From Bacteroidota bacterium (GTDB lineage Bacteria; Bacteroidota; Bacteroidia; Bacteroidales; JAAAOM01), in NCBI GenBank assembly GCA_009908855.1, contig JAAAOM010000033.1, positions 1-64,000 on the forward strand: a stretch of 64,000 bases of DNA. Reading direction: 5' to 3'. The notes under the pieces are model-generated. The model was not told where the DNA came from. It did no database searches and saw nothing but the letters and a program-made list of their open reading frames with translations. Below, piece after piece: positions 7,705-12,000 of this stretch. The translations under genes and the position numbers were made by a program. Position 1 is the stretch's first letter. Each line of letters opens with the position of its first letter.

Positions 7705-8097
7705 GGGGCCGACATGGTTTCGACAGCAGGTACATGGAGATGTAAGCATGCCGAGCCACGCATTAACGCTCGTTAATCAGGGATGCAACACTTTTAAACG
7801 GCGAAAATAACTACGCGCTTGCTGCGTAATCGAAGTAACAGTAGATTACCTTAATCCCGGTTCAAGGAACCAGGACAAGCTGTCTCTCTGAGACCCTTCC
7901 CGGCGGCCTCAGACCAAGAGACACCGAAAAGTTGGGATAGCCAGGTGATTGCCTCGGTCATTTGGTGAAATTTAAGAGGCTACGGTTTAAGTAGGTAGTC
8001 TGTGGCCGGCTTAAACCCGACAATAAAGCACGGACTAAGCATGTAGAAAGCATGTTTGTGGCCTGTTTGGACGGCGGTTCGATTCCGCCCGGCTCCA
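7705..8097 (+). ncRNA. ssrA: Transfer-messenger RNA (tmRNA)
   Basis: Single-piece tmRNA for rescue of stalled ribosomes with SmpB. The 5' end GGGGCCGACATGG pairs with the 3' end GGCTCC (8091-8096) plus discriminator A8097 to form the tRNA-like acceptor arm; the T-arm reads GGTTCGATTCC just before it. The tag frame is at 7800-7829 and encodes GENNYALAA followed by TAA, the usual Bacteroidetes tag ending in the ALAA degron. The 3' CCA is not encoded: the sequence after the discriminator reads CAA, so CCA must be added after transcription. Between tag and T-arm lie several stem-forming GC blocks (7860-7990) fitting the pseudoknots. Confidence 0.97.
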
Positions 8098-8162
8098 CAA
8101 AATCAGTTTGGAGTGTGAGTATTGAGCAAGAGCGAAATACGAACACGAGAAACTGATTTTGT
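8097..8162 (+). repeat. 13-bp inverted repeat abutting the tmRNA 3' end
   Basis: Perfect 13-bp arms at 8097-8109 and 8150-8162 (ACAAAATCAGTTT and its complement) with a 40-nt loop. The first base is the tmRNA discriminator base. A second 8-bp pairing (8119-8126 with 8165-8172, GTATTGAG/CTCAATAC) crosses the first and could form a pseudoknot or an alternative fold. It may act in tmRNA 3' processing or termination, or be the terminal stem of an IVS-like insert. Confidence 0.6.
8101..8132. repeat. 32-bp direct repeat, left copy
   Basis: Identical over 32 bp to 8544-8575. It starts four bases after the mature tmRNA end and precedes the four-helix-bundle gene. The pair brackets that gene exactly, with the right copy starting at the second base of its stop codon. 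Confidence 0.85.
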
Positions 8163-8197
8163 CCCTCAATACACAAACACCAACTCAAACTAACTCG

Positions 8198-8545
8198 ATG
8201 TTTGATTTTGAAAAATTGGAAGTATACAAAAAAGCCAAGTCATATAACCGATCGGTTAGTGATTTCTTAGCCAAAGATACTGTTGACAAAGTTACCTATG
8301 ACCAGCTCAAGAGAGCTTCTTTCAGTATCATGCTAAATATTGCCGAAGGTGCCGGAAGGTTTACCAATAAAGATAAACGAAACTTTTATGTTATCGCCAG
8401 GGGATCGGTTTTCGAATGTGTGGCCATTTTTGATTTCCTGAACGATGAACATAAAATTGATGAATTCTTTTTCAATGACTTTTACAAAGCCCTCGAAGAA
8501 ATTTCCAAAATGCTCTTTGCTTTGATTAAAAGCCTGGAACGGTAA
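8198..8545 (+). CDS. Four-helix-bundle protein (IVS/S23 type)
   Basis: 115-aa protein of the family first met as ORFs in 23S rRNA intervening sequences, related in fold to the Avd accessory proteins of diversity-generating retroelements. The start is taken at 8198 (MFDFEKLEVYKKAKSY) because this is where family homology begins; the frame stays open back to 8159 but that part is stem sequence. Diagnostic motifs: FEKLEVYKKA, LKRASFSIMLNIAEGAGR and a C-terminal helix ending LIKSLER. Biochemical function is unknown; members form pentameric basic bundles and probably bind nucleic acid. Here the gene is not in rRNA but directly after tmRNA, bracketed by a 32-bp direct repeat, which suggests it arrived as a unit. 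Confidence 0.9.
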   Translation: MFDFEKLEVYKKAKSYNRSVSDFLAKDTVDKVTYDQLKRASFSIMLNIAEGAGRFTNKDKRNFYVIARGSVFECVAIFDFLNDEHKIDEFFFNDFYKALEEISKMLFALIKSLER

Positions 8546-8575
8546 TCAGTTTGGAGTGTGAGTATTGAGCAAGAG
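8544..8575. repeat. 32-bp direct repeat, right copy
   Basis: Perfect copy of 8101-8132; it overlaps the TAA stop of the four-helix-bundle gene by two bases. It is followed by further GCAAGAG repeats (to about 8606). Confidence 0.85.
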
Positions 8576-10227: not shown

Positions 10228-10614
10228 TAAATTGAGAACAGCTGGTCCATTTTCCATTTACATGGATTAAATGTGCGTTAAGCTAAAATTGTCATAACTA
10301 TATCCAGATCAAATTGGATTTATACACAATCTTATCTGAACGAGGATGGTTTGACAAAACAAACCCGTACAAATGGCTGAAAAAAACATGATGTTTATGT
10401 ATGGCGGCTTAAATCCGGTGGGAGAGCTAAAGATTTTGAATTTTTATCATCCAATGACCTGCCTAAAAAGGGTGTATTAAGAAAATTTACTGCATTACAA
10501 ATCCTGAAGTACCCGTGACGGCATTTGAAAAAAAACTTTTTAAATCCATTTGTGAAAAATATCAACCAAATCGTTCCTTGCGATTATCATTATAAAATAT
10601 TTGTTATTTTTGAA
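10228..10614. other. Non-coding stretch with decayed coding fragment
   Basis: No intact gene. At about 10390-10502 an open stretch reads like protein (includes LSSNDLPKKGVLRKF) but has no start and is closed on both sides by stops and frame breaks. I do not recognise its family. It suggests a dead gene between the crp head and the riboswitch. Confidence 0.35.
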
Positions 10615-10795
10615 CCCTCATTGGTTTTCAATCCCGATAGCTGTCGGGAGAAATTAAAAGGGAATGCCGTGAAATTCAGCAACAGTTCCCGCTGCTGTGA
10701 GCTCCGGATAATGTTTTAGTAATTTGCCACTCTTAATCAATTAAGGGGAAGGTGCTAAAACAGGAGTAAGTCAGAAGACCTGCCGATGAAACATA
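10615..10795 (+). promoter_or_regulatory. Cobalamin (B12) riboswitch
   Basis: Conserved landmarks in the right order: AAAAGGGAATGCCGTGAA (10654 on), GTTCCCGCTGCTGTGAG, TTGCCACTC, AAGGGGAAGGTGC, and the B12 box AGTCAGAAGACCTGCC at 10769-10784. A hairpin CCCGATAGCTGTCGGG lies at 10633-10648 near the 5' side. It is followed by about 200 nt of leader including GAAACAT...ATGTTTC pairing that may be the expression platform. It should repress the methyltransferase gene at 10993 when adenosyl- or methylcobalamin is plentiful. Confidence 0.92.
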
Positions 10796-10992
10796 GATAT
10801 TGCAGTCTGCGGAGAACAGATAACTAATCAGAACAATGTTTCGTTAGCCTTCCTCCTGCATTGTATGTTGCAAAATCTAAAAAACTGTGTTTATCAATAA
10901 TAGTAGTCATGGTAAATAAAATACTAATTGACTTTTTGAGCCAAATTATCATGCCTGAATGTGATGTTTCGTTAACAATAAATAATTAATCA

Positions 10993-12000
10993 ATGAAAAA
11001 AATAAGCATGAAAGACTGGATAAACAAACGATTGGAATCAGAAAAACGTGAAATGATGCCTGTTATGACATATCCAGGGTTGGAATTTACCGGAAAAAAA
11101 ATTATTGACCTTGTAACCAATGGTGAAGAACACTTCAGGTGCATTGAAGCTCTGGCAAAATACTATCCGACCATTGCCAGTGTTATAGTTATGGACCTTT
11201 CTGCAGAGGCAGAAGCCTTTGGTTCAAAAATTTCCTTCCGGAATGATGACGTACCGACTATTGCTGAAAAATTATTACCTCAACTTACTGATGTGGATAC
11301 ATTGAATATGCCTGAAGTAGGTGCAGCAAGAACCAATGAGTATCTTAAAGCCGCAGCATTGGCAGCCAATCAAATATCTGACCGACCTACTTTTGCGGGT
11401 ATGATCGGTCCCTATTCACTGGCTGGTCGATTGGCTGATATTACAGAAATGATGACATATATCATAATGGACCCTGAAAACTCACATAAACTTTTGAGAA
11501 AGGCTACTGATTTTCTGAAAGAATATGCTATGAAATTTAAACAAACAGGTGCAGATGGAATTGTGGTGGCGGAACCTGCTGCCGGACTATTACCAGCGTA
11601 TATGTGCGACGAATTTTCTTCAGGATATATGAAAGAGATCGTTGACTACGTGCAGGACGATAATTTTTTGGTGATCCTTCATAACTGCGGAAATACGGTG
11701 GAATTGGTAGAATCTATGGTTTCCACCGGTGCCGGGTCATTGCACTTTGGAAACGCGATTAACATGAAAGATATAATGCCTCAGGTTCCGGAAAATATCA
11801 TTGCCATGGGCAACATTGATCCTGCCGGAATTATTAAAAGCAGCACACCTGAACAGGTAAAAAACATAACAGTACAATTATTGAAGGACATGAAACCCTA
11901 TCCAAATTTTGTTTTATCAACCGGATGTGATGTACCCCCAGGTTCACCTAAAGAAAATATTGATGCATTTTTCGATGCCTTACATGTTTTTAACAAATAG
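10993..12000 (+). CDS. MtaA/uroporphyrinogen decarboxylase-fold corrinoid methyltransferase
   Basis: 335-aa TIM-barrel protein of the HemE/MtaA/CmuA superfamily. I favour a corrinoid-dependent methyl transfer or salvage role over haem synthesis because the zinc-thiolate ligands of MtaA-type enzymes are present (LHNCG near residue 230 and STGCDVPPG near 312), the N-terminal substrate motif of true HemE is not evident, and the gene sits under a cobalamin riboswitch. N-terminus MKKISMKDWINKRLESEKRE; VVAEPAAGLL near 190. No corrinoid protein or methyltransferase partner (MtaB/MtaC type) lies beside it, so substrate and partner are unknown. The cassette lies between two copies of the crp head. Confidence 0.85.
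   Translation: MKKISMKDWINKRLESEKREMMPVMTYPGLEFTGKKIIDLVTNGEEHFRCIEALAKYYPTIASVIVMDLSAEAEAFGSKISFRNDDVPTIAEKLLPQLTDVDTLNMPEVGAARTNEYLKAAALAANQISDRPTFAGMIGPYSLAGRLADITEMMTYIIMDPENSHKLLRKATDFLKEYAMKFKQTGADGIVVAEPAAGLLPAYMCDEFSSGYMKEIVDYVQDDNFLVILHNCGNTVELVESMVSTGAGSLHFGNAINMKDIMPQVPENIIAMGNIDPAGIIKSSTPEQVKNITVQLLKDMKPYPNFVLSTGCDVPPGSPKENIDAFFDALHVFNK

Follow-up and report, generated by a model that had tools for sequence, protein, structure and literature searches.

Intervening sequences (IVSs) of 23S rRNA are inserted within a helix of the rRNA and excised by RNase III. In Coxiella, Leptospira and Brucella, such IVSs carry an S23, or four-helix-bundle (4HB), ORF (PMC4990558). In the 64,000-nt stretch of Bacteroidota DNA analyzed here (the window), a gene of this family lies directly behind the tmRNA gene, which raises the question of what kind of unit it belongs to and how that unit came to sit at the end of a structured-RNA gene. 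A sequence-only reading of the locus had proposed either a mobile IVS-like element that lands at such ends or a gene linked to tmRNA processing.

The structured unit and the 4HB gene behind tmRNA

The features of the locus are as follows.

7705–8098, + strand: tmRNA gene (ssrA), the anchor (ARAGORN; Rfam gives 7705–8100, E 4e-68)
7705–7711 and 8090–8096, + strand: tmRNA acceptor stem, the next base being A8097
8097–8191, + strand: unit 1, the structured 5′ unit of ~95 nt, hairpin then leader
8097–8162, + strand: unit 1 hairpin, 66 nt, with an outer 13-bp stem, covarying inner stems and an apical GC-AAGA-GC
8163–8191, + strand: C-rich leader of unit 1, CCCTCAATACACAAACACCAACTCAAACT, as read from the sequence
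8101–8132, + strand: copy 1 of a 32-nt direct repeat, the 5′ part of unit 1
8198–8545, + strand: 4HB gene, 115 aa, PF05635/TIGR02436
8544–8575, + strand: copy 2 of the 32-nt direct repeat, the start of a truncated unit 2, overlapping the stop codon
8557–8601, + strand: tail of unit 2, a degenerate repeat with a 13-nt offset between copies

The ORF at 8198–8545 matched PF05635 (E 1e-23) and TIGR02436 (E 4e-21), and 2GSC and 2RLD are relatives of its product among solved chains. Together with the ARAGORN and Rfam calls for tmRNA, this bears out the earlier placement of a 4HB gene directly after tmRNA. The gene is the sole ORF within the window element, which does not encode a tyrosine integrase. 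The 13-bp inverted arms that had been noted (8097–8109 and 8150–8162) are present and perfect, and their first base, A8097, lies at the tmRNA 3′ edge. Both copies of the 32-nt repeat are likewise perfect, and no further copy was found in the 3.35-Mb genome with up to 3 mismatches allowed. The gene had been described as bracketed by this repeat; the copies stand, but a bracket made by target-site duplication was rejected, because the copies begin two units and elsewhere whole units occur in tandem. The 32-nt repeat is the common beginning of two unit copies, the second of which is truncated, an arrangement that fits two stacked units. No displaced tRNA or tmRNA 3′ fragment was found after the window element. 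Rfam returned no match for the structured unit in the window; at 10605–10801 it identified a cobalamin riboswitch, upstream of an ORF at 10993–12000.

Compared with shuffles, the window hairpin gave a folding z of −3.9 in a 116-nt context and of −6.2 in a 101-nt one, and the median z for 46 units was −4.3. In an alignment of 11 units, all of one geometry, 92.9% of the cells paired and 8 pairs were changed on both sides; the covariation score was reached by none of 500 shuffles, and slid controls collapsed. Stem lengths were too different for a covariance model, and units were searched for with profile HMMs of two unit classes. A T-run of at least 4 stands at the 3′ foot of the hairpin in 35 of the 46 units, which gives the hairpin the appearance of a terminator. 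The window copy has a short T-run, and a consensus terminator scan made no call on the + strand.

The 8-nt crossing match from which a pseudoknot had been suggested (8119–8126, GTATTGAG, with 8165–8172, CTCAATAC) exists in the window, and the leader of unit 1 is partially complementary to the 5′ arm and to 8544–8575. Arms and leaders from one locus were, however, no more complementary than those taken from different loci, indicating a family-wide property and no locus-specific signal, and a pseudoknot or arm–leader switch was rejected on this ground. Classical attenuation was rejected from the layout, since the leader is positioned 3′ of the T-run and therefore cannot act before termination. 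In 23S IVSs, complementary ends keep the ORF in a loop; here, complementarity between the leader and the downstream repeat was above the 95th percentile of swapped pairs at 7 of 44 clade loci and partial in the window.

Placement of the clade behind tRNA and tmRNA genes

A protein scan of genomes yielded 79 4HB loci, mostly from draft MAGs and some with doubtful labels, of which 66 had enough upstream DNA to be evaluated. On the 5′ sides of the scanned loci, the window-type unit was found repeatedly, immediately after the end of a tRNA or tmRNA. By ARAGORN, 49 of the 66 evaluable loci have a same-strand tRNA or tmRNA gene no more than 800 nt upstream, whereas a rough expectation from tRNA density is ~0.5%. 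The family does recur near ssrA, tmRNA being the target at 14 of these 49 loci; the others lie behind tRNA-Leu (14), tRNA-Arg (9), tRNA-Lys, tRNA-Met and tRNA-Phe (3 each), and tRNA-Asn, tRNA-Glu and tRNA-Thr (1 each). Among the remaining 17 of the 66, several show what is left of a tRNA or tmRNA 3′ end in front of the unit, and others have tmRNA nearby or behind an inserted island. None of 30 other PF05635 loci from the order had a gene for tRNA or tmRNA in the 500 nt upstream. The tRNA/tmRNA placement is not accidental, and within our sample the tRNA link is restricted to one 4HB clade. In a protein tree with few columns and many unresolved forks, the tRNA-close loci formed a group (SH-aLRT 97) that also took in two distant long-branch rows; the adjoining RNA gene changed at least 26 times. 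A phylum-wide profile search at E 1e-25 found, besides the window, only relatives of the non-tRNA type. The proposed link to tmRNA processing gains no support: members of the clade also follow tRNA genes of eight or more types, and the unit frequently persists beside a truncated 4HB gene or with none at all.

Unit DNA alone, used as an independent query against 247 genomes of the order, matched 7 of them. The sites were at tRNA-Arg (G082, G515 and G604), tRNA-Lys (G604), tRNA-Ser (G514) and tmRNA (G533 and the window genome), with ectopic copies besides. Placement, target switching and this search support the mobile alternative of the sequence-only reading, an element with an IVS-type protein that uses the ends of structured-RNA genes. 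Fluviicola, Crocinitomix and Labilibacter are among the carriers of the element. In G604, a one-contig genome, tandem arrays of ~390-nt repeats lie behind tRNA-Arg and tRNA-Lys (L210, L211); the inner part of these arrays resembles another dispersed repeat of that genome.

Among order relatives with a readable tmRNA, the unit was absent behind tmRNA in 27 of 28, an indirect counterpart of the empty site by which mobility was to be checked. The exception (L016) has two solo units behind tmRNA, and a duplicate of the tmRNA end, 18 nt long, stands before the first of these. A same-species or fully syntenic empty site was not found, and the sole same-genus relative of G082 gave no tRNA match. Searches of phage (50,697) and plasmid (72,556) records gave no relative, and viral contigs held one distant relative; phage or plasmid carriage was rejected on these record searches.

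Traces of insertion, stacking and decay

A match to the 3′ end of the local tRNA, with a score of at least 10, was found no more than ~150 nt after the 4HB stop at 7 of 45 loci, against an expectation of 0.17 obtained with tRNAs of other types; at most of the 45 loci a displaced fragment is absent. The displaced fragments measure 10–18 nt (17 nt at L083, L084 and L133, 10 nt at L075), and most begin at or just past the T loop. Islands integrated in tRNA genes show a comparable fragment start (PMC4383910), and by this analogy a tRNA 3′ fragment after the 4HB stop would be the mark of integration into the tRNA gene. Fragments of 10–18 nt speak for site-specific DNA recombination as in tDNA islands, and not for the insertion at RNA ends that had been envisaged. 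The fragment at L142 matches a different tRNA-Leu isoacceptor than the adjoining tRNA; some fragments may therefore be carried along by the element or be part of an adjacent unit.

In G027, tmRNA is followed by 7.2 kb with a tyrosine integrase, then by a 13-nt tmRNA end and a 4HB array. At L091, foreign DNA is followed by a 14-nt tmRNA end and then by an element 95% like that of L093, which lies directly behind tmRNA. From these layouts it follows that island integrases act at these tRNA/tmRNA ends. Most elements have no adjoining integrase. Units form tandem arrays of varying copy number; L116 and L117, which are 97% alike, contain 3 and 4 unit copies, respectively, and also differ in cargo. 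Between or after units there are genes for HigB toxin, TIR-domain, AAA_14/DUF4143 and ATPase_2 proteins and type ISP restriction-modification. The cargo-bearing loci L140, L088, L118, L151, L115 and L209 lie behind tRNA genes. Decay is seen as solo units and as broken, truncated or missing 4HB genes beside retained units.

The window genome itself holds a solo unit (C22:17203) and a decayed copy of the window element that consists of the hairpin, the leader and the first 4HB codons (C36:30744–30836). Its contigs 13, 33, 36 and 38 (L006, L008, L010 and L012) also contain dispersed repeats, without a 4HB gene, in which GTCCGGCTGAGCGTAGTCGAAG adjoins GAGTAAGGAGCAAGAG-like stretches. A second 4HB gene of this genome (L001; G000:C21:108970–109287) stands behind a long degenerate array of 7/14-nt period, and an 18-nt repeat, which includes the 4HB start codon, is present at both ends of that array. 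4HB genes of the tRNA clade often have 7–8-nt repeats, and other PF05635 genes (L044–L073, L154–L156 and L239) have degenerate repeats with a 6–8-nt period on both flanks; complementarity between the downstream and upstream flanks of PF05635 genes was above the 95th percentile of swapped pairs in 20 of 32. Heptameric repeats lie upstream of the ORF in the Coxiella 23S IVS (PMC4990558). Upstream of tmRNA, after a conserved region, L024 has a gene-less, inverted, heptad-like hairpin, and at the same position L107 has a 4HB gene between such heptad-like arms; the two are possibly an empty and a filled hairpin loop.

Origin of the elements and comparison with known systems

We consider it reasonably likely that window positions 8099–8575 are one copy of a group of tiny, tDNA-anchored mobile elements of Bacteroidota that lack an integrase and are moved in trans. 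A full element (~0.5 kb) would comprise the structured ~95-nt unit and the 4HB gene, on the same strand and directly behind a tRNA or tmRNA 3′ end. It would enter by site-specific recombination at the T-arm/3′ end of a tRNA gene, the incoming DNA restoring the tRNA 3′ end and a fragment of 10–18 nt being left beyond the element. Because the element encodes no recombinase, these mini-islands probably depend for movement on integrases that target tRNA genes and act in trans, the putative movers being tyrosine integrases of islands with the same tRNA sites. The hairpin would make good the tRNA gene's loss of its terminator, so that insertion would be tolerated. Repeated insertion at one tRNA end would pile up units, and such stacking would account for the 32-nt direct repeat. 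The 4HB protein, which is kin to rRNA-IVS proteins and to Avd, probably binds its own unit's nucleic acid. A broader proposal, which we put forward tentatively, is that of a new class of integrase-less, sub-kilobase parasites of tRNA genes, in which the terminator-like hairpin unit would be a recombination and insulation module and the 4HB protein would take an active part in movement; on this view, one superfamily would have as sister forms the rRNA IVSs and the Bacteroidota 4HB genes that are bracketed by inverted repeats.

It is unlikely, in our judgement, that the elements are instead remnants of larger islands, that is, of tRNA-targeting ICEs or IMEs that carried the unit and the 4HB gene beside attL and of which the rest was deleted. 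Integrase-bearing islands do share the sites (G027, L091), and HigB, TIR, AAA/DUF4143 and type ISP cargo lies between or after units. However, several loci consist of exactly the unit and the 4HB gene, followed by a tRNA fragment within ~150 nt of the stop, which weakens this explanation because independent deletions sharing one end point would be improbable, and in G027 and at L091 the island sits between the RNA gene and the element, not around the element. Lower still is the probability that we give to RNA-mediated mobility, in which tRNA–element transcripts would be reverse transcribed and re-enter tRNA gene ends with the 4HB protein in the role of the Avd protein of diversity-generating retroelements. 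PF05635 proteins are homologous to Avd and share its four-helix-bundle fold (PMC10053308), and the unit is a structured RNA fixed at the tRNA 3′ edge. By contrast, no reverse transcriptase, template repeat or variable repeat was seen at these loci, the single reverse transcriptase region of the window genome lies on another contig and has an in-frame stop, and tRNA fragments of ~17 nt fit integrase crossover sites. A vertically inherited host system, positioned behind tRNA genes for 3′ maturation or termination of tRNA and tmRNA, would agree with the same-strand orientation, the tight spacing and the terminator-like hairpin, but the unit is rare and patchy (7 of 247 order genomes), its tRNA targets switch, the gene is often broken or absent and units amplify in tandem, so that we regard such a system as highly improbable.

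The integrase-less elements favored here resemble 23S IVSs in their PF05635 gene, their size (~0.43 kb), their structured RNA ends, their one short and decaying ORF and their scattered distribution. They differ in sitting behind tRNA/tmRNA genes, not inside a 23S rRNA helix, and in having a conserved terminator-like unit, tandem stacking and target switching. Cis-mobilizable elements (CIMEs) and integrase-less satellites carry cargo between att-like sites and have no recombinase of their own. The present elements are far smaller and combine a conserved structured unit with a single conserved gene, and their mobilization is putative; both terms occur in PMC5704250. Islander catalogs tDNA islands in tRNA and tmRNA genes (PMC4383910). 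With such islands the elements share a same-strand start at the tRNA/tmRNA 3′ end, tmRNA among the targets, a regenerated tRNA 3′ end and tandem arrays, and at 7 of 45 loci, the window copy not among them, also a displaced 3′ fragment; they measure ~0.5 kb instead of many kb and have no integrase. Islander drops candidates that are shorter than 2 kb or lack an integrase (PMC4383910), and integrase-less elements of ~0.5 kb would therefore be missed.

No prior description was found in the literature searched, which was of limited extent, and the element seems to be a mobile parasite of tRNA gene ends not described before. To our knowledge, the 4HB proteins of IVSs have no agreed function, and the mechanism of IVS movement is not settled. 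The clade places IVS-type 4HB proteins in another niche, the ends of tRNA and tmRNA genes, where traces of insertion, stacking and decay open mobility to direct testing. Two further things are indicated: tRNA-gene islands of a size that Islander's filters are built to exclude, and a conserved structured RNA whose window copy has no match in Rfam.
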